Notes under the pieces: model-generated
The model's database searches: none
The model's input: only the letters and a program-made list of their open reading frames with translations
Told to the model about the DNA's origin: nothing
Assembly: GCA_019247865.1 (NCBI GenBank)
Contig: JAFBAJ010000037.1
Span: forward strand, 1-10,762
Direction of reading: 5' to 3'
Source of the DNA: Acidobacteriota bacterium
GTDB taxonomy: Bacteria; Acidobacteriota; Blastocatellia; Pyrinomonadales; Pyrinomonadaceae
DNA length: 10,762 nucleotides
In this document: one piece after another, positions 1-10,762 of the stretch
Numbering within the stretch: the stretch's first letter is position 1
How the letters are laid out: each line of letters opens with the position of its first letter
Made by a program: the position numbers and the translations under genes

Positions 1-1158
1 GTCTCCCATCACGAAGTCGGAAACGGTCACGCTCGCGCCGTAGATGAAGTAGCGATCCAGCCCGGACTTGTGGCTGAAATGCATCGCCCGCATGACGAAG
101 CCTGAGGAGAGGTCGCCGATCACTCGGCCGCGCTTCTCAAGCTGCACGATGCGCGCAAAGAGCTCTGCGGCCGAGCCTGATTCGCTGTCCAGAAGGACGA
201 CCAGATTGCCTTTGAAGATACGGTCAGCGCCGCGCGTCTTGGCGAGCATCGGCTTGGTCTCCGTGCGCGATTTGATGTCATAGACTTTGACATCATGGTC
301 GAACATGTAACCCACCAGACGGAGCAGGGTCTGTTCATAGCCGCCCCCGTTGCCGCGCAGGTCCAGGATCAGCGACTTACGTTTGCGTGCCTTGTCCATC
401 ATCTCGTCCACGAGGTGGTCGTCGTCGAACTGCGGCATTCTCCAGATCAGCAGCTCCTTGTCTTCGACATAGCGATGGCGCATCAGACGCGCGTAATTCT
501 CCCACTGCCTGATGAGGTCCGAGCGGTCGGCTCCGGTCGTGCTGCCCAGGTTGTAGACGGCCTTGCCCGGAGTGACTTTCGCCTGCACGCTGAGCGAGCG
601 TGCTTCTCCGCCCGCGCTCCGCACGAGCAGTGAGATCTCCGGCTGGAAACGCAGAAAGTACCAGAGCTTCCAGAGCCCTTCGCGCGTCGGCGTCGCGCCC
701 GCCAGAGCGAGGATTTCGTCGCCCGGCTTGAGACCTTTGGCTTCGGCGTCGCTCCCCGGTTTGACCGCCGTCACGTAACACTTGTCGCCGATCATCTGGA
801 GCGTCCAACCCTGTTCCACGCCGTCGGCCGGGGCCGGAATGAGAAAGAAAGTGTGCGAGTCGTTGAAGTCCATCAACGAACGCGCGATGATGCCCAGCAT
901 CTCGCCCATGGAATTGGCCGCCTTGACCTTCGCCTCCGCGGCTCCGAAGTGCGCGTCCAGATCGAGGCCGCGAAAAGTCGTGTCATAATAATTTTTCTGA
1001 ATATCTTTTTTGATGAGCTGCACCATCTCGACCGCACGCCGCCGGTCGTTATCGAGCGTCTGCGCCTGCGCACCCTGCCGCAGCGTGGCGATGAAGAGGA
1101 GGCCGAACAGCACGGCGAGCGTGATGGCGCGCGTGCGCCGGTAAATTTTTATCTGCAT
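1..1158 (-). CDS. Exported S41-family (tricorn-type) peptidase, C-terminus cut off by window edge
   Basis: This gene reads from ATG at 1158 leftward and is still open at position 1, giving 386 residues. The start is supported by AGGAAGA at 1164-1170, about 5 nt upstream. Residues 1-32 look like a Sec signal peptide (basic n-region, hydrophobic LAVLFGLLFIA, cleavage after AQA). Then come an N-terminal helical part ending in the motif DFNDSH (Ser101-His102), a PDZ domain near 118-195 (GSDAEAKGLKPGDEIL), and the S41 core with LDLRGNGGG at 266-273 and the nucleophile region SESGSAAELFAR (likely Ser329). The Lys of CtpA/Tsp is absent (GDLSSGFVM). The Ser-His pair before the PDZ and Ser in the core fit the tricorn/S41B arrangement, known from the family. 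The final catalytic Glu would lie just past the edge. It probably acts on peptides or misfolded proteins outside the cytoplasm; the substrate is unknown. It is a paralogue of the upstream neighbour and probably co-transcribed with it. Confidence 0.92.
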   Translation of the reverse strand, partial: MQIKIYRRTRAITLAVLFGLLFIATLRQGAQAQTLDNDRRRAVEMVQLIKKDIQKNYYDTTFRGLDLDAHFGAAEAKVKAANSMGEMLGIIARSLMDFNDSHTFFLIPAPADGVEQGWTLQMIGDKCYVTAVKPGSDAEAKGLKPGDEILALAGATPTREGLWKLWYFLRFQPEISLLVRSAGGEARSLSVQAKVTPGKAVYNLGSTTGADRSDLIRQWENYARLMRHRYVEDKELLIWRMPQFDDDHLVDEMMDKARKRKSLILDLRGNGGGYEQTLLRLVGYMFDHDVKVYDIKSRTETKPMLAKTRGADRIFKGNLVVLLDSESGSAAELFARIVQLEKRGRVIGDLSSGFVMRAMHFSHKSGLDRYFIYGASVTVSDFVMGD

Positions 1159-1163
1159 GATTA

Positions 1164-1170
1164 TCTTCCT
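1164..1170 (-). promoter_or_regulatory. Ribosome binding site of the downstream S41 gene
   Basis: On the minus strand AGGAAGA lies 5 nt before the ATG at 1158-1156. It fixes the start of the partial peptidase and shows that this gene has its own translation initiation signal after the intercistronic hairpin. Confidence 0.7.
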
Positions 1171-1179
1171 TAAACTCGA

Positions 1180-1228
1180 CCGGCGTGGAGACAAAGCAGC
1201 CTCGTCAACCGCTTCGTCTCCGCGCCGG
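1180..1228 (-). repeat. Intercistronic hairpin between the two S41 genes
   Basis: Arms at 1180-1192 and 1216-1228 are inverted repeats of 13 nt with one non-Watson-Crick position (a C-A mismatch in the minus-strand RNA, G-T wobble on the plus strand). A further 4-bp AAGC/GCTT stem (1194-1197 with 1211-1214) closes a 13-nt loop. It lies between the stop of the upstream peptidase (1239-1241) and the start of the downstream one. There is no U-run after it on the minus strand, so it is not a standard rho-independent terminator there. It could protect or process the mRNA, or partly terminate it. On the plus strand it is followed by ATTTTT, but no gene reads toward it. Confidence 0.6.
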
Positions 1229-1238
1229 ATTTTTCAAG

Positions 1239-2576
1239 CTATCTCTTCCATTCCACAGGGAAGAGCTTGCCCGCCTCTTCGGGCGAGAGGCTGAAGCCGG
1301 CCAGCTCCGCCGCGCGCATGAGCACCGGGTCGCGGTAAGCGGCCATGTCGGTTCCGGTCGGCAGGATGACTTCATCCGGCGCTACGCCGACGTGCTCAAG
1401 GCTCTTGCCGTCCGTCATGATGACATCCGCGTTGGTGATGCTCGCGCCGTAAAAGGCGACGATGTCCACCCCGGACTCGTGCCCGACTCCTCTTGCCTGC
1501 ATGACTGCGCCCGCCGAACGGTCGCCGAGGACGACGCCGCGCTTTTCGAGCTGCATCGTCCGCGCGAAGATTTCCGACGCCGAGCCGGAGCCGCTGTCCA
1601 CCAGCACGATCAGCTTGCCCGTGAAATAGTCTTTACGACCTTTCGCCTCCTGCGGGTCCATCTTCTTGCGCCCCTTGAGGTCTGCGATCTTCACATCATG
1701 ATCGAAGAAGTTGCCGACGAGACGCTCCAGCGCATCCACGCGCCCGCCGCCGTTGCCGCGCAGGTCGAGGACCAGGGTCTTATACTTCCTGACCTCTTTC
1801 ATGCGCGCATCCATGCTCGCCGGGTCTTGCACGAAGGTGTGCATCTTCCAGAAGATGATGTCCTTGCTGTTTTTGGGCGTGACGAAGATGTTGCGCTCCA
1901 GATAGTCCGCGTCTTCGGCCTCACGGATGCCGGTGCTGAACATGTCCTCAAAGTCCTGAATGATCTTGCCCTCCTGGACTTTCGCCATCGCCAGCACTTC
2001 GCGCTGTGTGCCGTCCCGGTCCTGAATGACGAACTTGACGCCCGCTTTCGGATGCAGCACATAGTAGTAGAGCTGCATCTTCCAGATGTTGTCGCGGGTC
2101 GGCTCAAAGCCGTCGATGGAGTAAATCTCATCGCCCGGCTTGAGACCTTTGGCTTCGGCGTCGCTCCCCGGCTTGACCGCCGTGATGAAACATTTGTCGC
2201 CGATCATATTCATCCGCCAGCCGTACTCGACCTTGACCGCTTTGCCCGGCGGCCGGAAATAGAGGTGCGAGTCGTTAAAGTCCATCAACGTCTGCGAGAT
2301 GATGCCGAGCGCCTGACTGATCGAGGCCGCCTTTTTGACCTTCTCCTGAGCCTGCTTAAAATGCTCGTCCAGATTGATGCCGTGAAAATTCTCGTCGTAG
2401 TAATTCTTCCTGATATCGGTCTTCAGCGCGTCCAGCATCTCCGAATAACGCTGGCGGTCAAAACTGCTGAGCGACTGGGCGCGGGCGGGATTCTGCCAGC
2501 CCGCCAGCGCGAGCAGACAGAGCGCGGCCATCGACATGGCGAGGGCTGCGCGCATGGGGCAACGTCTAAACTTCAT
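1239..2576 (-). CDS. Exported S41-family (tricorn-type) peptidase, complete
   Basis: Start chosen at ATG 2576-2574 (445 aa), because AGGAG at 2586-2590 is 9 nt upstream. An ATG three codons earlier (2585) directly abuts that AGGAG and is less likely. Residues 1-33 form a signal peptide (MKFRRCPMR, then ALAMSMAALCLLALAG, cleavage after ARA). The order is N-terminal helical domain with DFNDSH (Ser103-His104), PDZ near 118-200 (GSDAEAKGLKPGDEI), core strand motif LVLDLRGNGGG at 268-278, nucleophile motif SGSGSASEIFAR (likely Ser332), and SLEHVGVAPDEV with Glu394. These residues match the Ser/His/Ser/Glu set of tricorn-type S41 enzymes as I recall it, while the CtpA catalytic Lys position is Ala (GDRSAGAVM). 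It is therefore probably an active periplasmic or secreted protease of S41B type. It is the first gene of a two-gene unit with its paralogue, divergent from the glycan cluster. Confidence 0.93.
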   Translation of the reverse strand: MKFRRCPMRAALAMSMAALCLLALAGWQNPARAQSLSSFDRQRYSEMLDALKTDIRKNYYDENFHGINLDEHFKQAQEKVKKAASISQALGIISQTLMDFNDSHLYFRPPGKAVKVEYGWRMNMIGDKCFITAVKPGSDAEAKGLKPGDEIYSIDGFEPTRDNIWKMQLYYYVLHPKAGVKFVIQDRDGTQREVLAMAKVQEGKIIQDFEDMFSTGIREAEDADYLERNIFVTPKNSKDIIFWKMHTFVQDPASMDARMKEVRKYKTLVLDLRGNGGGRVDALERLVGNFFDHDVKIADLKGRKKMDPQEAKGRKDYFTGKLIVLVDSGSGSASEIFARTMQLEKRGVVLGDRSAGAVMQARGVGHESGVDIVAFYGASITNADVIMTDGKSLEHVGVAPDEVILPTGTDMAAYRDPVLMRAAELAGFSLSPEEAGKLFPVEWKR

Positions 2577-2829
2577 TGGGTACATCTCCTACAGGATTAT
2601 TTAGTTGGATTGGTTGTTAAATGATAGCCGCCGGTGCTGGAAAATCAGACAGGGGGTTTCGCGGCCGCGAGCGAAGGCGCATCTTACACGCGAAGCGGAC
2701 GCGCTGCAAATGGCCTGGGCCGGGGCGCGCTTGTCGCCGCGCCGGAGCCATGTTACTTTGCAGAGTTTGCTTCCGCAGCGCGATGATTTACCGTGTGCGC
2801 GCCGGAATAAGATGGCGTAGAGCGGCCAA
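2577..2829. other. Divergent intergenic region
   Basis: About 250 nt between the peptidase start and the first methyltransferase start, on opposite strands, so promoters for both units should lie here. The peptidase side is AT-richer (2591-2625) and includes a TAAATA on the minus strand, but I could find no convincing -35 partner. On the plus side TAAGAT at about 2808-2813 is a weak -10 candidate. A GGCGCG/CGCGCC stem (2724-2729 with 2738-2743) is of the kind expected by chance at this GC content. Short open frames here show no family features or ribosome binding sites. Confidence 0.5.
2586..2590 (-). promoter_or_regulatory. Ribosome binding site deciding the start of the complete S41 gene
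   Basis: AGGAG on the minus strand. It directly abuts the ATG at 2585 and is 9 nt from the ATG at 2576, so it favours the second ATG. The resulting protein begins MKFRRCPM, a better signal-peptide n-region. Confidence 0.65.
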
Positions 2830-3756
2830 ATGGATGCTTTCGCCGCCCCTGAATTCATGCTGATGTCTCAAGCCGATCAGAACCTGAAAGAGCGCGTCCG
2901 CGCCTTCTGGCAGGCGCATCCGTGCGGCACCAAGTTCGCCGACGCAGCGCCGGGCACGCGCCTCTTTTTCGAGCGCGTCGAAGAGCATCGCTATCGCACG
3001 GAATGGCACATTCCGGCGGCGGCGGATTTCGGTAGCGCGCGCGGACTCAAAGTGCTGGAGATCGGCTGCGGCCTCGGCACGGACGGCGCGCAGTTCGCAC
3101 GCGCCGGAGCGGACTACACCGGAGTCGACCTGACGGAGGCGGCGGTCGAGCTGGCGCGCAGGCGTTTCGAGCTCTTCGGCCTGCCCGGCACTTTTCGCAC
3201 GGCCGACGCCGAGAACCTGGACTTTGCCGACGACACTTTCGACCTCGTCTACTCGCACGGCGTCCTGCATCACACGCCGGACACGGAGCGCGCGGTGCGC
3301 GAAGTCCATCGCGTCTTAAAGCCCGGCGGGCGCGCCGTCGTCATGCTCTATCACAGAGACTCTTATAACTATCGCTTCAACATTCGCCTCTTTCGCCGCG
3401 CCGGAGCGCATCTCCTCAAGTCGGAGACGGGATTGAAGCTCGCGCACAAACTGACGCACGAGCCTTTGGAGAGCCTGCGCGAGCACGCGCGCTTTATCAA
3501 AGAGGACACGGAGAGTTATCTCGCGCCCGGCGAGTTTCTGAGCCAGAACACGGACGGGGCGGGCAATCCTCTGGCGCGCGTCTACTCGCGGCGCGAGGCG
3601 CGCGAGCTTTTCAGGGATTTTTCGCGCGTCGAGCTGCACACACATTTTCTGAACAAACGCTGGCTGCCCGTCGTCGGCAACCTCTTGCCGCGCGGCCTCG
3701 AAGCGCGCCTCGCCGCACGCTGGGGCTGGCATCTCTGGATCTATGGAACGAAGTAG
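2830..3756 (+). CDS. Class I SAM-dependent methyltransferase (Methyltransf_11 type)
   Basis: 308 aa from ATG 2830. ATGs at 2857 and 2863 are possible alternatives, since none has a clear Shine-Dalgarno and homology begins near residue 20 (RVRAFWQAHPCGT). The Rossmann methyltransferase core is plain: motif I VLEIGCGLGTDG at 75-86, an acidic ribose-binding Asp at 100 (GVDLTEAA), the DLVYSHGVLHHTPD block at 138-151, and RVLKPGG at 161-167. A C-terminal extension from 170 to 308 contains NTDGAGNPLARVYSR and a conserved-looking basic tail. It transfers a methyl group from S-adenosylmethionine to an unknown small-molecule or glycan substrate, probably in the cytoplasm. It opens the glycan cluster, so a sugar, lipid-linked or quinone-like acceptor is plausible. 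Its TAG stop is the first part of a 26-bp inverted repeat. Confidence 0.9.
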   Translation: MDAFAAPEFMLMSQADQNLKERVRAFWQAHPCGTKFADAAPGTRLFFERVEEHRYRTEWHIPAAADFGSARGLKVLEIGCGLGTDGAQFARAGADYTGVDLTEAAVELARRRFELFGLPGTFRTADAENLDFADDTFDLVYSHGVLHHTPDTERAVREVHRVLKPGGRAVVMLYHRDSYNYRFNIRLFRRAGAHLLKSETGLKLAHKLTHEPLESLREHARFIKEDTESYLAPGEFLSQNTDGAGNPLARVYSRREARELFRDFSRVELHTHFLNKRWLPVVGNLLPRGLEARLAARWGWHLWIYGTK

Positions 3757-3826
3757 CCAGTAGCCAGTAGTCAGTAGAAAAGCATTTGTCTTGATGCTGA
3801 CTACTGACTACTGGCTACTGGCTACT
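3752..3826 (+). repeat. Palindrome A: heptamer-built inverted repeat over the stop codon
   Basis: Perfect 26-nt inverted arms at 3752-3777 and 3801-3826. Each arm is made of tandem 7-bp units (AGTAGCC, AGTAGCC, AGTAGTC, AGTAG). The 23-nt centre (3778-3800) holds a second small hairpin, AGCAT at 3781-3785 with ATGCT at 3794-3798. The stop codon TAG of the methyltransferase (3754-3756) is inside the left arm. The right arm ends 14 nt before the ATG of the epimerase and leaves no room for an obvious Shine-Dalgarno. There is no U-run, so it is not a classical terminator. It may affect mRNA stability or coupling, or be a mobile palindrome. Confidence 0.93.
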
Positions 3827-3840
3827 GCTTATTGATTGAT

Positions 3841-4800
3841 ATGAAAAACATCTTAGTGACCGGCGGAGCCGGATTCATCGGGTCGCATCTGGTGGACCAG
3901 CTCCTGAGCGAGCGCGCGTGGCGCGTGACGGTCGTTGACGACTTCAACGACTTTTATGAGCCGGAGCGCAAGCGCGCCAACATCGCCGCGCATGTGGCCG
4001 ACGCGGCTTACAAATTGATCGAAGCCGACATCCGCGACCGTGCCGCGCTCGATGAGATTTTCGCCGCGACGAAGTTCGAGGTGATCGTGCATCTGGCGGC
4101 GCGCGCGGGCGTGCGTCCGTCTCTGAGCGAGCCGGAGCTTTACGCCGAGACGAACATCAACGGCACGCTCAACCTGCTTGAGCTGGCGCGCGAGCATGAA
4201 GTAAAGCAGTTCGTCTTCGGCTCCTCCTCCTCCGTCTACGGCATCAATGCCAAAGTCCCTTTCAGCGAAGAGGACATGATTCGCCAGCCCATCTCGCCCT
4301 ATGCCGCGACGAAGGCGGCGGGCGAACTGCTCTGCCATACCTACACGCATCTCTACGGCATACGCTGCGTGTGCCTGCGCTTCTTTACGGTCTACGGCGC
4401 GCGGCAGCGCCCCGATCTGGCGATACACAAGTTCGCGCGTCTGATCGATGCGGGGCAGGCGATCCCAGTCTTCGGCGACGGCACGACGCGGCGCGATTAC
4501 ACTTTTATCGAAGACATCATCCAGGGCGTGCGCGCGGCCATCGATTACGACGGGAGCGAATACGAAGTCTTCAACCTCGGCGAATCGCGCACGGTCGAGC
4601 TGCGCGAGCTGATCGAGCTGCTGGAAAAGGAGCTCGATCAAAAAGCCGTCATCGAGCGCCAGCCGATGCAGCCCGGCGACGTGCCGCAGACCTTCGCGGA
4701 CATCTCGAAGGCGCGACGCTTGCTCGGCTATGATCCGCACACGCAGATCGAAGACGGCATCCGCCGCTTCGTCGAGTGGTTCAGGAATGAGAGAAGCTAG
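3841..4800 (+). CDS. NAD-dependent epimerase, UDP-glucuronate 4-epimerase type
   Basis: 319 aa starting at ATG 3841 ([17 protein letters not shown]). An in-frame TTG at 3832 is less likely because the family begins at this beta strand. It is an extended short-chain dehydrogenase: NAD-binding TGGAGFIG at residues 7-14, Asp33-Asp34 after beta 2 (VVDDFNDFY), catalytic Ser cluster GSSSSVYG at 127-134, and Tyr154 with Lys158 in SPYAATK. The blocks [45 protein letters not shown] and [15 protein letters not shown] are those of UDP-glucuronate 4-epimerases (LspL/Cap1J type). These make UDP-galacturonate, reversibly, through a 4-keto intermediate. GDP-mannose dehydratase or other sugar 4-epimerase activity is less likely but possible. 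It would supply a uronic acid donor for the neighbouring glycosyltransferase. The start has no visible Shine-Dalgarno; palindrome A sits just upstream. The next gene's ATG (4787) overlaps its end. Confidence 0.92.
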
Positions 4801-6283
4801 CTCTGTCTTTCCTTCGCGCCTTCGCGCCTTTGCGAGAGAATTAGTCTCACGCAAAGACGCAAAGACGCAAAGAAGAAGGCGCATCGCGGGGCTGCTCCTA
4901 ATCGTCCTGCTCGCGCTCGCAGCGCGCGGCCTGACGGCGCAGTTCATCGGCGCGCGCCTCAGTGATGCGGGCTGGTTTCCGTACGGCATCTACGCGATCT
5001 TTGACCGGCAGGCCCAAAGCATTCTGGACGGGCGCGCGAACGCCTTCTGGATCGGCGACCCGTCGCAGACGGAGGCGGCCATCTATCCGCCGGGTTATCC
5101 GCTCTGGCTGGCGTTGGTCTATGCGTTGCGGGGCGCGCGTTCGGCTGCGGTCGTGCAGGGCGTGCAATGGGTTTTGGATTCCTTCGCGGTGCTGCTGGTC
5201 GCGGGCATCGGCGTGACGGCGTTCGGGTGGCGTGTGGGAATCCGGGCGGGCGTGCTGGCGGCTCTGTCGCCGCTCTTGGCGCTCTACGGCGCAATGCCTT
5301 TGGCGGATGCGCCGACGAGCTGGCTCGTGCTGGGCGGAGCGTGGCTGCTCGTGCTCGCGTGGCAGAGACGGAGGGGGCGGAGCTGGCGTTTCGCGCTCGG
5401 CGCGGGGCTGCTGGTGGGATTGTCCTGCTGGCTGCGAGCGAACGCGATGCTGCTCGCGGTGTGGTGGGCGCTCGCCCTGCTCCTGTTCGTGAAAGAGAGC
5501 TGGAAAGTGCGTGTGCGGCTGGCGGCCTGTGTCCTCGCCGGAGCGGCGATCTTTCTGCTGCCGATCGTGGTGCGGAACATCATCGCCTTTCGCGCCTTTG
5601 TGCCGACGGGGATGGGCGTCGGGACGAACCTCTGGGAAGGCATCGGCGAGACGGATCGCGCGGCGGAGTTCGGCGCGGTCTACGGCGACGGCGCGTTGAT
5701 CGAAAAAGAGCGCGCGGAGCTGGGCGTGAGCGCTGGAGAGAAATTCAATCTCTACTTTCCGGACGGCGTGGAGCGCGACCGCGCGCGTGCGCGCAAAGCT
5801 TTCGCGGTCATCAAAGCTCATCCGGTGTGGTATGCGGGAGTGATGGCGCGGCGGATGGCGGGCGTCCTGAACTACGCGGGCGAGCCTTCGCCGGTTTACG
5901 GCAGCGCGGGCTTTAACGTCACGAGCCGGAAATGTCTGGAGGCGCGCTGGCAGGGCGGAGTCGCGGCCTTCTTCGTGAACCTGCTCGGCATGGCGCAGAG
6001 CGTGATGAGGTATGTCGTGCTGCCGCTCATGCTGCTGGGGCTCTTCTTCGCCCTGCGCTCGGACGCGCGCGCGGCGGGAGTCTTGCTGACGACCGTGCTC
6101 TATTATCTGTGCGTCGGCTCGTTCATGCACGCGGAGATTCGTTACGGCCTGCCGATGCAGGCGCTGCTCTTCGTCTTCGCTGGAGTGGGAGTCGCAGGGC
6201 TGCCCGCGCTCACTTTGAAAATCAGAAGGAAGCTCAGAAGGAAAATCAGAAACAAGAGGGAAAGCCGGACCGTAGGTTTATGA
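4787..6283 (+). CDS. Polytopic membrane glycosyltransferase, PMT/ArnT-like (GT39/GT83 clan)
   Basis: 498 aa from ATG 4787, which overlaps the epimerase end by 14 nt. The only other in-frame ATG nearby is 4730, well inside the epimerase. Residues about 9-31 are encoded by palindrome B (they include [10 protein letters not shown]), and the first membrane helix starts near 33. Roughly ten hydrophobic segments follow (33-50, 104-114, 122-145, 155-170, 176-192, 203-234, 246-262, 391-422, 431-446, 456-474). A hydrophilic stretch at 263-390 contains [27 protein letters not shown] at 100-109 and EIRYGLPMQ at 450-458 are typical of dolichyl/undecaprenyl-phosphate-sugar-dependent transferases. It probably moves a sugar from a polyprenyl-phosphate donor to a lipid, protein or glycan on the outer face of the membrane. 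The acceptor is unknown. The C-terminus is a basic tail from a 12-bp tandem repeat. The TGA stop overlaps the next start. Confidence 0.85.
4808..4876 (+). repeat. Palindrome B: octamer-built inverted repeat inside the 5' end of the glycosyltransferase
   Basis: The right half has three perfect tandem 8-mers CGCAAAGA (4850-4873). The left half (4808-4834) has diverged inverted copies (TTCGCGCC twice, then TTTGCG). The innermost 7 bp pair perfectly (CTTTGCG 4828-4834 with CGCAAAG 4850-4856), and GAGA/TCTC (4836-4839 with 4845-4848) forms a small central hairpin. Going outward, the mismatches fall at every fourth base and are all C-A on the plus strand, hence G-T wobbles on the other strand. It starts 8 nt after the epimerase stop and is read through in frame by the downstream gene. 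Confidence 0.85.
6219..6254 (+). repeat. 12-bp tandem repeat, three copies, coding for a basic tail
   Basis: AAATCAGAAGGA, AGCTCAGAAGGA and AAATCAGAAACA follow each other without a gap. They encode KIRR, KLRR and KIRN near the C-terminus of the glycosyltransferase. The 12-bp period keeps the frame. The array lies just before the overlapping start of the next methyltransferase. Confidence 0.75.
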
Positions 6284-7281
6284 AAGAGAGACTGCTGCCA
6301 TACCTCGCCTGCCCTTCGTGCGGCGGTGTGATTCGACTGCTTTCCGTCGCGCGCAGAGACGGGACCGAAGTCATTGAAGGCGATCTGGATTGCGAGACCT
6401 GCGCGCGCCACTTTCCCATTGTGCGGGGCGTGCCGCGCTTTGCGAGCCTCGATCAGATCGAAGCGGACAAGGCCGCGACGGCCGAGAACTTCGGCTTTTC
6501 GTGGCAGCACTTCACGCAGGAGGACGAGCGCTACGCGGAGCAATTCCTGGGCTGGCTGACGCCCGTCCGGCCTGAGTTTTTTCGGGATCAGGTCGTCCTC
6601 GAAGGCGGCTGCGGCAAAGGGCGGCACACGCGCCTCGCGGCCGAGTGGGGCGCGCGCGATGTCATCGCGGTCGATCTCAGCGCGGCCGTCGAGGTCGCAC
6701 ACGCGGCGACGCGCGAACTGGAGAACGCGCACGTCATACAGGCAGACCTCTATCATTTGCCTTTGCGCCGCGCCTTCGATTACGCCTTTTCGGTCGGCGT
6801 GCTGCATCACCTGCCGGAGCCGCGCGGAGGGTTTCTCTCGCTCGCCTCGAAGGTCAAAGCGGGCGGGCACGTTTCGGCCTGGGTCTACGGCGCGGAGAAC
6901 AACGGCTGGATCACGCGCTTTGTGAATCCGCTCCGCGAGAAAGTGACGGCGCGCATCAACCCGCGCGCGCTGCTCCAGCTCTCAAAGCTGCCGACCGTCG
7001 CGCTCTACGCCGCGACGAAGCTCGTCTACGGCCCCCTGAACCGGAGCGCGGGCGGAGCCAACCTCGCGCGCAAACTCTTCTACAATGATTACCTCAAGGC
7101 GATCTCCGATTTCGGCTGGCGCGAACAGCACACCATCGTCTTCGACCACCTGGTCGCGCCGACCGCCTTCTACCTCTCGCGCGAAGAGTTCGCAGAGTGG
7201 TGGCAGGCCGTCGGCGCGTCGGATGTCGTGATAAGCTGGCACAACCGGAATAGCTGGTGCGGCATGGGACGAATTACATAA
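6280..7281 (+). CDS. SAM methyltransferase with N-terminal Trm112-like zinc ribbon
   Basis: 333 aa from ATG 6280, whose ATGA overlaps the TGA of the glycosyltransferase, which implies translational coupling. The frame stays open far upstream, but that part is a shadow of the transferase. Residues 1-55 form a zinc-ribbon of Trm112/YcaR type: CPSC at 11-14 and CETC at 38-41, ending FPIVRGVPRF. The Rossmann core follows: VLEGGCGKGRHT at 106-117 (motif I), Asp132 (VIAVDLSAA), and DYAFSVGVLHHLPEP at 167-181. The C-terminal part has a long insert (205-300) and ends HNRNSWCGMGR, as in methyltransferases of polysaccharide clusters. It transfers methyl from SAM to an unknown acceptor, probably a sugar. 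The fused ribbon may stabilise the fold or bind a partner. Its stop is followed at once by palindrome C. Confidence 0.9.
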   Translation: MKERLLPYLACPSCGGVIRLLSVARRDGTEVIEGDLDCETCARHFPIVRGVPRFASLDQIEADKAATAENFGFSWQHFTQEDERYAEQFLGWLTPVRPEFFRDQVVLEGGCGKGRHTRLAAEWGARDVIAVDLSAAVEVAHAATRELENAHVIQADLYHLPLRRAFDYAFSVGVLHHLPEPRGGFLSLASKVKAGGHVSAWVYGAENNGWITRFVNPLREKVTARINPRALLQLSKLPTVALYAATKLVYGPLNRSAGGANLARKLFYNDYLKAISDFGWREQHTIVFDHLVAPTAFYLSREEFAEWWQAVGASDVVISWHNRNSWCGMGRIT

Positions 7282-7286
7282 AAGAT

Positions 7287-7378
7287 GGTCTTGGGTCTTT
7301 GTGCTTTGTGCTTTGGTCTTTGCACGCGGCTCAGCGTTGAGCGAGACATCAAAGACCTAAGACCTCAGTCCAAAGACC
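7287..7378 (+). repeat. Palindrome C: heptamer-built inverted repeat
   Basis: The left arm (7287-7321) is five tandem heptamers: GGTCTTG, GGTCTTT, GTGCTTT, GTGCTTT, GGTCTTT. The right arm (7351-7378) is four inverted heptamers: AAAGACC, TAAGACC, TCAGTCC, AAAGACC. The innermost 8 bp pair perfectly (7315-7322 with 7350-7357). The centre holds GCTCA/TGAGC (7329-7333 with 7338-7342). The element starts 5 nt after the upstream stop and ends 21 nt before the next ATG. With the flanks it fills the 118-nt gap between the two genes; I see no other signal there. Confidence 0.82.
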
Positions 7379-7399
7379 GAAACAGAAAATGAAACACAG

Positions 7400-8164
7400 A
7401 TGAGCGATTTACCGCACGAGATGCAGCAGCACACCTACTCGATCATGTACGAGGTCGAGGGGACGCACTGGTGGTTCGCCGGGCGGCGGCGCATTCTCGA
7501 AAGCTTTCTGGAGCGCATCATCACAGAGCTGCATAGCACAGACCGCAAGCCGCGCCTGCTGGATGTCGGCTGCGGGACTGGAGCGAATCTGGAGATGCTC
7601 GCGCGCTTCGGCGAAGCGGAGGGCGTGGATGTCTCTGCGGACGCGCTGGCCTTCTGTCGCGCGCGCGGCCTGGAACGCGTGAGCCTCGGCGCGGCTGAGA
7701 AGCTGCCCTACGAGGACGGGACGTTCGATGTCGTGACCGCGCTCGATGTGGTCGAGCATCTGGACGACGACCTTGCGGGACTCAGCGAGATGCGCCGCGT
7801 CCTGCGCAAGGACGGGCGCGCGCTCTTTTTCGTCCCGGCCTTTATGTTCCTCTGGGGCGTGCAGGACGACATCAGCCATCACCGCAGGCGCTATCGTCTG
7901 CCGCAGTTCTTAAACACGGTTCGCGCCGCCGGGTTCGAGATCGAGCGCGCGACCTACGCCAACCTGACCTTCTTCGCGCCGATCCTGCTCGGCCGCGCGC
8001 TGATGCGCGTCACAGGACTGCGTCCGGCTTCGGAAAACAACATCACCGTCTCCAGCCTCAACGGCCTCTTCGGCCGCCTCTTCGGAGCGGAAAGCCGCAT
8101 CTTACGCCACACCAATCTTCCCTTCGGCGTCTCCGCCATCTGCGTCGCACGCCGCGTTGATTAG
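7400..8164 (+). CDS. Class I SAM-dependent methyltransferase
   Basis: 254 aa from ATG 7400. No clear Shine-Dalgarno precedes it; the region just upstream is purine-rich (GAAACAGAAAATGAAACACAG) and follows palindrome C. The N-terminal YEVEGTHWWFAGRRRIL at 17-33 is a recurring opening in methyltransferases of surface-polysaccharide clusters. Motif I is LLDVGCGTGANLE at 53-65, the acidic residue is Asp77 (EGVDVSADA), and TFDVVTALDVVEHLDDD spans 108-124. RVLRKDGRALFFVPA then leads to a distinctive FLWGVQDDISHHRRRY block at 150-165. The hydrophobic stretch at 190-203 may be an amphipathic membrane contact. It methylates an unknown acceptor with SAM and is the third, non-paralogous methyltransferase of this cluster. 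The TAG stop is part of palindrome D. Confidence 0.9.
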   Translation: MSDLPHEMQQHTYSIMYEVEGTHWWFAGRRRILESFLERIITELHSTDRKPRLLDVGCGTGANLEMLARFGEAEGVDVSADALAFCRARGLERVSLGAAEKLPYEDGTFDVVTALDVVEHLDDDLAGLSEMRRVLRKDGRALFFVPAFMFLWGVQDDISHHRRRYRLPQFLNTVRAAGFEIERATYANLTFFAPILLGRALMRVTGLRPASENNITVSSLNGLFGRLFGAESRILRHTNLPFGVSAICVARRVD

Positions 8165-8263
8165 CCACAGAGTCACAGAGTCACAGAGGAAATCAAACAC
8201 ATGAAGATGCTGCTGAGTCTGATTCTTCATGTTATCTCCGTGTCTCTGTGACTCTGTGGCTAA
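8161..8263 (+). repeat. Palindrome D: octamer-built inverted repeat over the stop codon
   Basis: The 29-nt arms 8161-8189 and 8235-8263 are inverted with 26 matches. Both ends read TTAGCCACAGAGTCACAGAG outward-in on their own strand. The arm is a run of 8-bp CACAGAGT units. The 45-nt centre contains a separate perfect 9-bp hairpin, ACATGAAGA with TCTTCATGT, at about 8200-8208 and 8222-8233. The methyltransferase stop TAG (8162-8164) is the start of the left arm, and the same TAG is presented on the opposite strand at the right end. Short T-rich sequence (TCTTTTC) follows, so bidirectional termination is possible but unproven. Confidence 0.92.
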
Positions 8264-8267
8264 TCTT

Positions 8268-8296
8268 TTCAGACCTGATTTGAGGTGAGATATACT
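8268..8296 (+). promoter_or_regulatory. Candidate sigma70-type promoter for the MOSC gene
   Basis: TTCAGA (8268-8273) and TATACT (8291-8296) are separated by exactly 17 bp, just beyond palindrome D. A start site about 7 nt after the -10 box would fall at or near the A of the ATG at 8303, suggesting a leaderless or near-leaderless transcript. Alternatively GAGGTGA (8282-8288) serves as a distant Shine-Dalgarno on a longer transcript. Confidence 0.35.
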
Positions 8297-8302
8297 CCGC
8301 TC

Positions 8303-8947
8303 ATGAAAATCATCTCTCTCAACGTCGGTCGTCCGCGCCTCGTGATGTCGAAGGGTGAAGCCGTCTCGACCGGTATCTTCAAGAAGCCTGTGGAGGGGCG
8401 CGTCATGCTGCGCACGCTCAATCTGGACGGCGACCGGCAGGCAGACCTCACGGTGCACGGCGGGCCGACCAAAGCTGTCTACGCGTATCCGGTCGAGCAC
8501 TACGAGTTCTGGCGCGCGGAGTTGCCGGAGATGGAGCTGCCCTACGGCATCTTCGGCGAGAACCTGACCGTCGAGGGCCTGGACGAATCGGTCAACATCG
8601 GCGACGCCTTTCGCATCGGCGAGGCGGAAGTGATGGTGACGGAGCCGCGCATGCCCTGCTACAAGCTCGGCATACGGTTCGGCCGCGCGGACATCATCCG
8701 GAGATTTCTGCAGAGCCGCCGCACCGGCTTCTACTTCTCCGTCCTCCGGGAGGGCGAAGTCGGCGCGGGCGATGAGGTCAAAGCGCTCGCGCGCGCGTCG
8801 CACGGCGTGACCATCGCGGACATCGTGCGGCTCTACGCCTTTGACAAGCGCGATGCAGAGACCCTGCGCCGCGCGCTGGAGGTCGAAGCGCTGCCCGAAA
8901 GCTGGAAGGAATATTTCCGCGAGCAGTTGAAGAAGGCCGAGCCATGA
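8303..8947 (+). CDS. MOSC-domain protein, YiiM-like
   Basis: 214 aa from ATG 8303. An in-frame GTG at 8285 would add six residues, but the family begins at MKIISLNVGRPR. The MOSC beta-barrel motifs are LNLDGDRQADLTVHGGPTKAVYAYP at 39-63 with HYEFW, FGENLTVEGLDE at 84-95, IGDAFRIGEAEVMVTEPR at 99-116 and PCYKLG at 118-123, where Cys119 is the conserved cysteine thought to handle molybdenum-cofactor sulfur. A C-terminal three-helix domain covers about 165-210 (GVTIADIVRLYAFDKRD). E. coli YiiM is linked to reductive detoxification of N-hydroxylated base analogues with molybdenum cofactor; the same role here is only an inference. It follows palindrome D and a possible promoter, so it may head a new transcription unit. 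It overlaps the debranching-enzyme gene by ATGA. Confidence 0.93.
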   Translation: MKIISLNVGRPRLVMSKGEAVSTGIFKKPVEGRVMLRTLNLDGDRQADLTVHGGPTKAVYAYPVEHYEFWRAELPEMELPYGIFGENLTVEGLDESVNIGDAFRIGEAEVMVTEPRMPCYKLGIRFGRADIIRRFLQSRRTGFYFSVLREGEVGAGDEVKALARASHGVTIADIVRLYAFDKRDAETLRRALEVEALPESWKEYFREQLKKAEP

Positions 8948-10762
8948 TTCGATTTGACGCAGACGAATGCCGCCGTCCTGAGAGCGCGACGGCGCGCGAG
9001 TGGCTGGAGACGAACGGGCTCGGCGGTTTCGCTTCGTCCACCATCACCGGGCTCAACGCGCGTCGCTATCACGGACTGCTCACGGCCGCCACGCGCCCAC
9101 CCGTCGGTCGCCTCGTCATGCTCTCCAAGCTCGAAGAGACGCTCGTCATCGCTGGCCGCCGCTACGAGTTAGCGACCAATCAATATCCCGGCGCGATCTA
9201 CCCGCACGGCTACCTGTTCCAGACCGGCTTTCGCCTCGACCCGTTCCCCGTTTTCACGTACGAAGTCGAAGGCATCATCATCGAGAAATCCGTCTTCATG
9301 ATTCAGGGCGAGAACTCGACCGTCATCCAGTACGAAGTCAAAGTCCCGGATCCCGGGTCCCGGGTCCCGGGTCTGTCTTTCGAGCTGCGCCCGCTCGTCG
9401 CGTGTCGTGATTATCATAGTCTGAAGCATGAGAATGATGCTGTTAATCGTTTCGTGCAGATCGGCGAAGGAGCGGCCTGCGTGAAGCCTTACGCGGACGC
9501 GCCCGCGCTCTATCTGGCGCATGAGGCGGACGAGGTCGAAGCGAGCGGCGGCGTGTGGTATCGCAACTTTGAATATGAGGCCGAGCGCGAGCGCGGCTTT
9601 GATTACACCGAAGACCTCTTTAATCCGTTAGTGCTCAAATTCGAGCTCGCAGACAGAGCTTCGTGCGTCGTCATCGCTTCCACCGCAGAACGCGAAGCAG
9701 GGCGCGGCGCGGAGTACAAAGCGCGTGAGCTTGCGCGGCGCGAGCGGCTTAAAGAATCCGCCAACTCCGTTGACGAGCTGACGCGTGCTTTGACCTGCGC
9801 GGCAGACCAGTTCATCGTCGCGCGTGGCGAGCAGAAGACAGTCATCGCGGGCTATCACTGGTTCTCGGATTGGGGGCGCGACACGATGATCTCGCTGCCG
9901 GGGCTGACGCTGGCGACCGGACGCGCGGAGGTGGCGCGCAGCATCCTGCTCGAATTCTCAAAATACGTCGACCGGGGAATGCTGCCGAACCGCTTTCCGG
10001 ACGCGGGCGCAGAGCCGGAGTACAACACTGTGGACGCGACGCTCTGGTTCTTTGAGGCCGTGCGCGCGCTCGTCGCACACACGCATGAGGCGGAGTTCGT
10101 GCGCGCGTCGCTGTATGAAACGCTCGTCTCGATCATTGACTGGCACGTGCGCGGCACGCGTTACAACATACGCGCGGACGAGGACGGGCTGCTCGCGTCC
10201 GGCGCGCCGGGCGCGCAACTGACCTGGATGGATGCGAAGGTCGGCGAGTGGGTCGTCACGCCGCGGCGCGGCAAGCCGGTCGAGATACAGGCGCTCTGGT
10301 ACAACGCCCTGCGCGTGATGGAGGAGCTGGCCCGTACGTTCGGCGACGCGTCACGCAGTCAGTCATACGGCGCGATGGCCGAGCGCGCGCGCGCGAGCTT
10401 TAACGAAAAGTTCTGGAACGAGGAGGCCGCGTGCCTCTACGACGTGATCGACGGCGAGAGCCGTGACGCATCCCTGCGCCCGAATCAAATTTTCGCCGTC
10501 AGTCTGGAGCACACGATGCTCAACTCAGACAGAGCGCGGCTGGTCGTCGAAGCGGTTGAACGCAGCCTGCTCACGCCCTACGGCCTGCGCAGCCTCGCGC
10601 CGGATGACCCGCATTATCGCGGGCGTTACGAGGGCGACGCGCTGAGCCGCGACGGCAGCTATCATCAGGGCACAGTCTGGGGCTGGCTGATGGGGCCGTT
10701 CATCACGGCCTCCCTCAAAGCCTCAGGCGAGAACGCCGGGACGAGCGCGAAGGTCGCGGCCT
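8944..10762 (+). CDS. Amylo-alpha-1,6-glucosidase / glycogen debranching enzyme (GH133), C-terminus cut off by window edge
   Basis: Starts at ATG 8944, overlapping the MOSC stop, with AGAAGG at 8931-8936 7 nt upstream; 606 residues are visible and the frame is open at the right edge. The N-terminal beta-sandwich domain of bacterial/archaeal debranching enzymes spans about 1-260 (REWLETNGLGGFASSTITGLNARRYHGLL at 18-46, LRPLVACRDYHSL at 148-160). The (alpha/alpha)6 catalytic domain follows: GYHWFSDWGRDTMISLPGL at 303-321, PNRFPDAGAEPEYNTVDATLWF at 348-369, LTWMDAKVGEWVVTPRRGKPVEIQALWYNAL at 426-456, and YHQGTVWGW at 573-581. It hydrolyses alpha-1,6 branch glucose in glycogen-like or other alpha-glucans, usually in the cytoplasm. 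Only the last few tens of residues should be missing. Residues 134-143 come from an in-frame heptamer repeat. The link to the MOSC partner is not obvious. Confidence 0.93.
   Translation, partial: MIRFDADECRRPESATAREWLETNGLGGFASSTITGLNARRYHGLLTAATRPPVGRLVMLSKLEETLVIAGRRYELATNQYPGAIYPHGYLFQTGFRLDPFPVFTYEVEGIIIEKSVFMIQGENSTVIQYEVKVPDPGSRVPGLSFELRPLVACRDYHSLKHENDAVNRFVQIGEGAACVKPYADAPALYLAHEADEVEASGGVWYRNFEYEAERERGFDYTEDLFNPLVLKFELADRASCVVIASTAEREAGRGAEYKARELARRERLKESANSVDELTRALTCAADQFIVARGEQKTVIAGYHWFSDWGRDTMISLPGLTLATGRAEVARSILLEFSKYVDRGMLPNRFPDAGAEPEYNTVDATLWFFEAVRALVAHTHEAEFVRASLYETLVSIIDWHVRGTRYNIRADEDGLLASGAPGAQLTWMDAKVGEWVVTPRRGKPVEIQALWYNALRVMEELARTFGDASRSQSYGAMAERARASFNEKFWNEEAACLYDVIDGESRDASLRPNQIFAVSLEHTMLNSDRARLVVEAVERSLLTPYGLRSLAPDDPHYRGRYEGDALSRDGSYHQGTVWGWLMGPFITASLKASGENAGTSAKVAA
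9343..9370 (+). repeat. In-frame heptamer array in the debranching enzyme
   Basis: Four tandem 7-bp units, GTCCCGG, ATCCCGG, GTCCCGG, GTCCCGG, followed by GTC. Each junction contains a CCCGGG-type palindrome core. It is translated as VPDPGSRVPG (residues 134-143), between a strand ending QYEVK and the family block LSFELRPLV, so it probably forms an extra surface loop in the N-terminal domain. Confidence 0.85.

Follow-up and report, generated by a model that had tools for sequence, protein, structure and literature searches.

Dispersed palindromes of tandem 7- to 9-bp units behind stop codons in an acidobacterial genome and their replacement at single orthologous gene ends

Why four gene junctions in one bacterial contig carry palindromes of a single design, each spelled with a different repeat unit, is the question raised by a 10,762-nt stretch of DNA (hereafter the window) from an Acidobacteriota bacterium (GenBank assembly GCA_019247865.1, contig JAFBAJ010000037.1, positions 1 to 10,762). 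A preliminary description, made from the letters of the window alone, had reported the four palindromes, here called J1 to J4, as inverted arms of tandem 7- or 8-bp units beside an upstream stop codon. The window, a single contig of the fragmentary assembly G000 (3.98 Mb in 855 contigs, 74% complete), was compared with the remainder of that genome, with a congener (G001; 71% complete) and with more distant genomes. Palindromes of this design proved to be abundant and dispersed, to lie preferentially just behind stop codons and between convergent genes, and, at single orthologous junctions, to have taken one another's place.

RESULTS

Abundance and Families of the Palindromes

Forty contigs of G000 were taken by number, of which 35 were readable and 5, which were masked, were left out. 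Together with the window they made up 36 pieces comprising 212,096 bases, 198 called genes and 161 gene junctions. When inverted repeats with a score of at least 15 were counted, palindromes were found in 45 of the 161 junctions of this 212-kb sample and in none after two rounds of dinucleotide shuffling. A tandem period in the arms, accepted at z ≥2.5, was significant in 35 of the 45 palindromes (8 in 16, 7 in 11, 9 in 5 and 11 in 3), and no period was accepted in the other 10. The count is conservative because only J1 and J4 of the four palindromes in the window pass the threshold and rule and are included, J2 and J3 being left out. If the sample is fair, the whole genome would hold roughly 800 such palindromes.

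Crude word counts divided the 45 palindromes into CGCAAAG (14), CRCAGAG (12), GTCTTTG-like (6), AGTCCCA (3), AGTAGYC/CAGTGGT (3) and other kinds (7). The 15-base core of the CGCAAAG family, CGCAAAGACGCAAAG, gave 291 matches in G000 (151 forward and 140 reverse), with none for the reversed pattern, and 17 (8 + 9) in the congener; strand bias was dropped as evidence of direction because an inverted repeat is identical on both strands. At least one match to this core was present in 65 of the 145 genomes searched, CACAGAGTCACAGAG was found in 25 of them and CAGTAGCCAGTAGCC in 10. The expansions differ from genome to genome: G001 contains dozens of matches to the J4 element, and G010 contains 11 + 11 matches to the core CAGTAGCC. 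In 400 kb of one contig of G003, a genome of the same family, 51 inverted repeats were detected, 18 of them with an arm period of 7 or 8; some of the others resemble repetitive extragenic palindromes (REP) and have no tandem units.

Placement behind Stop Codons and Flanking A/T Tails

The stop codon was nearer than the downstream start for 29 of the 33 palindromes between tandemly oriented genes. Twenty of the 33 lay within 10 nt of the stop, whereas 9.4 would be expected if positions were spread evenly over the leftover spacer, and a count as high arose in none of 20,000 simulations; 5 of the 33 lay within 10 nt of a start. Placement is therefore non-random with respect to stop codons, which supports the preliminary description. 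Among spacers of at least 30 nt, palindromes occupied 9 of 13 between convergent genes, 33 of 77 between tandem genes and 3 of 22 between divergent genes (Fisher p against divergent spacers, 0.002 for convergent and 0.013 for tandem).

The flanks of the palindromes are also biased. In the sense of the preceding gene, T accounted for 38% (0.383) of the 12 nt on the 3′ side, against 24% of the intergenic background, and A accounted for 40% (0.400) of the 12 nt on the 5′ side, against 0.24 of background; at least five T were present within 12 nt at 26 of 44 palindrome ends. This bias is present outside the CGCAAAG family too. In the 30 distinct CGCAAAG elements, conservation fades 10–13 nt beyond the core, within the A/T tract. 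Identity in 26 of these 30 elements was 0.96 and 0.73 for the inner arms and 0.44 for the centre, values that are indicative only, the loci having been fetched by a match to one arm and the arms being unaligned. Taken together, the hairpin, its position and its tails look, on sequence grounds, like a two-way intrinsic terminator.

Selfish or neutral repeats spread by a mobile element, for which the position behind a stop would be that of least harmful insertion and which would have no function in termination, offer another account, one that would accommodate the dispersed families, their patchy expansions and presence or absence between relatives. We consider it unlikely, although it is the most serious of the rivals, given that palindrome edges cluster within 10 nt of stops beyond even placement in the leftover spacer, that A/T tails occur in several families, that palindromes are in excess between convergent genes and that three species of another genus have retained a palindrome at the same gene end (see below).

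Different Palindromes at Orthologous Junctions

Contig C205 of G001 is colinear with positions 2728–8151 of the window, the main blocks being 76–84% identical, and carries tandem-unit palindromes at all three window junctions that it covers, the J4 junction lying beyond its end. The units are unrelated at J1 and J3. At J1, AGTAGCC units in the window correspond to CAGTTTT units in G001, both palindromes beginning within a few nucleotides of the stop; at J3, GGTCTTTG corresponds to GGACAGGAT; and at J2, CGCAAAGA with a period of 8 corresponds to CGCAAAGGA/CGCAAAGAA with a period of 9. At a further junction (L165), a GTAAATG-type palindrome is matched by an AGTGATA palindrome, and at two junctions in L104 a palindrome is present in one species only.

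Comparison of long congener contigs with G000 yielded few syntenic pieces, both assemblies being fragmentary. In the colinear pieces, 10 adjacent gene pairs were matched, and in 8 of these the spacer reaches 30 nt or more in one species or the other. These 8 junctions, scored partly by eye, hold palindromes on both sides in 4 cases (with different units in 3, and in 1 with a common word whose period differs) and on one side in 2, none being seen in the other 2. The cleanest one-sided case is a convergent gene pair separated by 2 nt in G000 and by 89 nt in G001, where the extra sequence is an AGTGATA/AGTGATG palindrome directly after TAA. Replacement in place is thus seen directly in single cases, and the comparison of relatives that had been proposed for these junctions revealed both presence/absence and a conserved architecture.

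In genus g3, counterparts of 53 adjacent gene pairs of G003 were identified in at least one of six relatives, giving 92 comparisons. Palindromes of any kind stood on both sides in 9 of the 92, and in 8 of these 9 the arms were unrelated; association at the level of junctions had an odds ratio of 6.7 (p = 0.012), or 5.7 (p = 0.03) when spacers shorter than 30 nt were left out. In genus g8, the CACAGAG palindromes found at one gene end start 7, 11 and 8 nt past the stop in G032, G065 and G008, respectively; at the same gene end G053 has a half remnant, G087 has a different long palindrome, seven others have none, and one locus ends there.

These comparisons bear on two further explanations. Native intrinsic terminators might have grown in place by slippage and template switching, their units differing by chance and nothing having moved. 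Such growth would be in keeping with the position, the tails, the complementarity of the arms and the variable centre, with the unequal order of units between the arms of the AGTGATA palindrome of G001, and with the period of 8 versus 9 at J2 in the two congeners. It is nevertheless improbable, because neither near-identical arms in many copies of one genome nor exact arms and outer ends common across phyla (see below) are expected from independent growth, and the gap of 2 nt in one species against 89 nt in the other also speaks against it. Alternatively, the paired tandem units could be sites bound by nucleoid proteins (IHF/HU), as proposed for Geobacter metallireducens, where selected passages of PMC2700814 give such a reading to the same paired 7-/8-mer architecture. 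We give this proposal very little credence: the units at the same junction of sister species are very different, which argues against one sequence-specific binder, and the excess lies at gene ends and not between divergent genes.

Structure and Setting of J1 to J4

All four palindromes of the preliminary description were recovered in place, with arms of tandem heptamers or octamers (Table 1). By gapped inverted-repeat score, 26 of 26 positions pair in J1, 23 of 28 in J2, 14 of 15 in the core of J3 and 28 of 30 in J4, and each score exceeded those of all 200 dinucleotide shuffles. RNA folding gave z values of −12.2, −3.2, −3.6 and −7.9 for J1 to J4, with 0, 1, 0 and 0 of 200 shuffles, respectively, folding equally well. 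J2 and J3 are clearly weaker and imperfect and were missed by gapless searches. The core arms of J3 (7287–7301 and 7350–7364) accompany an inner hairpin, GCTCAGCGTTGAGC, and J4 has outer GATTAGC, an inner hairpin ACATGAAGA/TCTTCATGT and a right arm followed at once by TTTT. In the 12 nt 3′ of the palindromes, T occurs six times at J1, five times at J4 and once each at J2 and J3. No Rfam family matched J1 to J4 above its gathering score: a search of window positions 3600–8400 returned 11 matches, all to microRNA models and all below that score.

The reported proximity to upstream stop codons also held, all four palindromes lying at or within about 10 nt of one. The upstream genes end at 3756, 4800, 7281 and 8164; J1 and J4 begin within the stop codon or immediately ahead of it, J1 overlapping that of the methyltransferase gene, J3 starts 5 nt past the stop, and J2 starts 4–11 nt past the epimerase stop according to how much of its imperfect outer part is counted. 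It had been concluded from the differing units that the palindromes are not copies of one element; the units do differ from junction to junction within the window, but all four kinds represent dispersed families, of which the genome has further copies.

The flanking genes, which encode three methyltransferases, an epimerase, a PMT_2-like membrane protein and a MOSC-domain protein, run in a single direction. J2 lies inside the next called open reading frame (ORF; ATG at 4787), a position that the preliminary description had missed; read in frame (4787–4880), it would supply the N-terminus of the PMT_2-like protein as called, with a repeat-encoded peptide. In the G001 orthologue, the called start lies 3′ of its palindrome, and the N-terminus differs.

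Table 1. Palindromes and genes of the window (window positions) and longer inverted-repeat elements at two other loci (locus positions)
Feature	Positions	Strand	Remarks
J1 palindrome	3752..3826	.	26-nt arms, AGTAGCC/AGTAGTC units, period 7, 23-nt centre
J2 palindrome	4805..4879	.	Core 4812-4872, CTTTGCG-first arms, CGCAAAGA units, period 8
J3 palindrome	7287..7378	.	GGTCTTTG-type units, period 7
J4 palindrome	8159..8265	.	30-nt arms, CACAGAGT units, period 8
Methyltransferase gene (Methyltransf_11), 5′ of J1	2830..3756	+	
NAD-dependent epimerase/GDP-mannose dehydratase-like gene, J1-J2 interval	3841..4800	+	Gene caller start 3832
PMT_2-like membrane protein gene	4787..6283	+	Called N-terminus runs through J2
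Methyltransferase gene, Trm112p-like N-terminus, 5′ of J3	6280..7281	+	
Methyltransferase gene, J3-J4 interval	7400..8164	+	
Longer inverted-repeat element around CGCAAAG palindrome	L111:2124-2273		
Longer inverted-repeat element around CGCAAAG palindrome	L007:1453-1587		

Occurrence in Other Phyla and in Viral Contigs

An exact CGCAAAG palindrome matched at least 88 stretches of the GTDB species collection. Among the matches listed, 80 record titles, by the taxa that they name or by assignment of the genus, represent Verrucomicrobia, Bacteroidetes, several classes of Proteobacteria, Desulfobacterales, Chloroflexi, Chlamydiae, Chlorobi, Nitrospinota, Planctomycetes, Myxococcota and Acidobacteria. 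The statement of the preliminary description that repeat-encoded peptides recur in unrelated genomes is supported in that the CGCAAAG repeat, which encodes one such peptide, occurs in many phyla.

Also among the matches listed, the outer bases, which the query did not fix, were TCA or TCT in 91 of 178 arms, although the arms paired within a palindrome are not independent. A common outer end across phyla favors shared ancestry and transfer over repeated independent origin; a shared constraint could be an alternative source of it. As assigned with a crude ORF caller, the 90 palindromes of this set fall between tandem genes (44), between convergent genes (22), between divergent genes (8), inside ORFs (10) and at edges (6), and the stop is nearer for 28 of the 44 in tandem spacers. 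Their flanks are AT-rich, with A (0.385) exceeding T (0.290) before the palindrome.

CACAGAG palindromes were detected in 20 stretches of viral contigs, and CGCAAAG palindromes in no viral contig. The phage detail comes from one of the 20 stretches, L346, which carries three near-identical CACAGAG palindromes with TCTCACAGAG ends (3110–3179, 3857–3928 and 6249–6315); these lie between genes of a cluster that runs in one direction and has head, portal-like, tape-measure and tail genes among its members. Such copies offer a route between hosts and counsel caution in calling each copy a full terminator.

Nesting and Possible Means of Spread

Palindromes are in some cases nested. In G068, the loop of a CACAGAG palindrome encloses a second palindrome, built of CGCGGAT units; in G001, AAGACCAAAGAC, a sequence similar to one arm of the GTCTTTG family, lies within the loop of the J1 palindrome. 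Two of 31 distinct CGCAAAG elements (L007 and L111) occupy the middle of a longer inverted-repeat element whose ends read GGTAGTG plus a GTCARTTT-like stretch (end sequence GGTARTGGGTCARTTT), and L029 is similar with a lower score. An 8-bp direct repeat, GGGAATAC, was recognized by eye on both sides of the longer element of L111, and none flanks those of L007 and L029. These longer elements, one of them flanked by an 8-bp direct repeat, make a transposase a possible vehicle; the same flanked element, like the copies in a phage gene cluster, would also be expected of selfish repeats.

Target-site duplication of the type left by miniature inverted-repeat transposable elements was not found in 30 ordinary CGCAAAG copies when compared with re-paired flanks. 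Two candidate origins were rejected. Origin from REP elements moved by REP-associated tyrosine transposases (RAYT) was rejected for the tandem class. Y1_Tnp, the RAYT domain, gave four matches in G000 and none in G001 and G010, both among the 60 genomes searched and both rich in repeats (G001 being only 71% complete), and no tandem-unit palindrome stood beside a RAYT gene in the three G000 contigs that were read of the four matches; near these genes lie one degenerate CGCAAAG palindrome, ∼1.5 kb away, and one different palindrome, GCTCCGTCAGGAGCG. DNA uptake sequences (DUS) were rejected because the unit words are not enriched in coding DNA: seven of them occur at 0.9–1.2 times Markov expectation in 170 kb, CGCAAAG 52 times against 46 expected. 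The palindromes are ∼70 bp long, contain no gene, show no general target duplication and have no need of RAYT.

REP-like palindromes without tandem units were observed at L301:615-675 and at several sites of G003 contig C23 (L081–L100), with sequences including GCTCCGTCAGGAGCG and GGCGGGCGGTAGCCCGCC. On the same contig, L096:3433-4080 (C23 303433–304080) holds three consecutive palindromes of CAGANRT-type heptamers within ∼650 bp, with arms of up to 67 nt.

DISCUSSION

We favor, as the probable explanation and with moderate confidence, several families of dispersed palindromic elements that are kept after stop codons as terminators or 3′-end hairpins and that replace one another. These elements would have one plan, in which two inverted arms of tandem 7–9-bp units enclose a centre that varies and, in many cases, an A-rich tail precedes the palindrome and a T-rich one follows it. 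Copies that are transcribed would fold into strong hairpins; with a T-tail present transcription would end, and otherwise the hairpin may set and protect the 3′ end of the mRNA. Copies behind stop codons would be tolerated or favored, and copies in coding or promoter DNA would be lost. A junction would need a hairpin and not a particular sequence, so that an incoming element could take the place of a resident palindrome, whether by inserting into the loop of the resident and persisting after the resident arms had gone or through recombination of one palindrome with another. Abundance, dispersal, placement and replacement in single cases are observed directly; the part played in termination or 3′-end formation and the process of spreading, for which a transposase is one possible vehicle, are both deduced from sequence patterns.

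Several observations weigh against this explanation. Five T within 12 nt are lacking at 18 of the 44 palindrome ends, and J2 and J3, with one T per 12 nt each, have no T-rich tail. J2 is, from its reading frame, probably translated; this and the missing tails of J2 and J3 would suit selfish repeats. Among the matches listed, cross-phylum copies show no excess of T after the palindrome (T 0.324 versus A 0.331), although tails that pair could have been counted as arm, hiding such an excess. Full termination would be costly for the copies in the one-direction phage cluster. No target duplication was found over 30 CGCAAAG copies, direct repeats of at least 5 nt flanking 4 of them compared with 3.1 in re-paired flanks. 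Because 45 of the 112 G000 spacers of at least 30 nt hold a palindrome, co-occupation of 4 of the 8 junctions compared between G000 and G001 is by itself not unexpected, and for G003 and G044 alone the association between junctions is absent (odds ratio 1.5, p = 1.0). A general memory of the junction site is accordingly weakly supported.

Short tandemly repeated repetitive heptamers of cyanobacteria are tandem heptamers with several sequences per genome. The published systems that follow are described from selected passages of each paper, to which every statement about them refers. Heptamer arrays of GGGAATC in Xanthomonas and of GGGGA(T/C)T in Nostoc are mostly intergenic (PMC4692102). Close site pairs in inverted orientation amount to 70 cases (186 sites) and 75 cases (183 sites) in two Xanthomonas genomes and are few in Nostoc; the arrays were studied as G-quadruplex repeats of a single unit type, and Calothrix heptamers are mentioned (PMC4692102). 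The palindromes described here are, like the Xanthomonas arrays, intergenic tandem heptamers in inverted pairs, but differ from those of Xanthomonas and Nostoc in having many units per genome and in-place swaps; a comparison of orthologous junctions is not part of these passages of PMC4692102. The paired sites of G. metallireducens comprise classes 1 and 2, with tandem units on opposite strands at variable distance, and class 3, with tandem heptamers; several unit families occur in that one genome, and the sites were read as binding sites of unknown global regulators (PMC2700814). Several unit families per genome and paired 7-/8-mers are shared with the palindromes reported here, whose stop-codon placement, tails and turnover do not appear in the cited passages of PMC2700814. 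In sum, inverted pairs of tandem 7–8-mers that are intergenic and present in many copies match the Xanthomonas/Geobacter type. The preliminary description had called the origin and function of such repeats poorly described, which is half right given that inverted heptamer/octamer arrays are published for Xanthomonas (PMC4692102) and G. metallireducens (PMC2700814), and its interpretation as a whole is partly supported.

Other systems share fewer features. In Neisseria and Pasteurellaceae, DUS and uptake signal sequences (USS) form inverted word pairs at gene ends with A-/T-tails and a convergent excess, most USS lying outside terminators (PMC1852404). The present palindromes resemble those terminators in consisting of a high-copy short word, inverted at gene ends, with tails and a convergent excess; unlike USS/DUS, CGCAAAG is not enriched in coding DNA here, and several unrelated words have one layout. 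REP/RAYT systems are built on short palindromes in extragenic DNA, some of them no more than 15 nt away from a stop codon (PMC12306157, PMC3733652), from which the present elements differ in their arms of tandem units and in the lack of a Y1_Tnp match in the repeat-rich G001 and G010. The TAACTGA heptamers of Beggiatoaceae are likewise abundant, intergenic tandem heptamers common to distant lineages, but are direct repeats mostly upstream of start codons, with one inverted repeat in 170 sets (PMC4679880). A 2026 survey of inverted repeats reports a bacterial peak at 50–80 bp after the stop, with conserved arms and variable spacers (PMC13155455); the palindromes of the present study begin at a much shorter distance from the stop. 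Passages of PMC13289151 and PMC2267715 contain nothing on tandem-unit palindromes, and the unit strings retrieved no bacterial paper by title in the open-licence literature. No account of palindrome replacement at orthologous gene ends was found in that literature among the titles and abstract starts listed, which is not proof of absence. The architecture thus has precedents in Xanthomonas and Geobacter, and in-place replacement has none found in the open-licence literature.

A wider interpretation can be put forward tentatively, as a possibility that we hold to be short of probable. The elements may belong to a cross-phylum superfamily of mobile gene-end hairpins, with outer ends TYTC-ACGCAAAG and TYTC-ACAGAG, that invade just after stop codons, act as bidirectional terminators or 3′-end caps, are partly phage-borne between phyla and replace one another, successive waves overwriting the terminators of a genome by a new spreading mechanism. 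If gene-end hairpins are in fact furnished and overwritten by spreading elements, many of a bacterium's terminators would have an ancestry other than the earlier terminators of the sites that they occupy, and the occurrence of repeat-encoded peptides across phyla would be explained. The palindromes would then also provide a naturally occurring set of gene-end hairpins that can stand in for one another, and a case in which selection on structure, with sequence left unconserved, could be tested.

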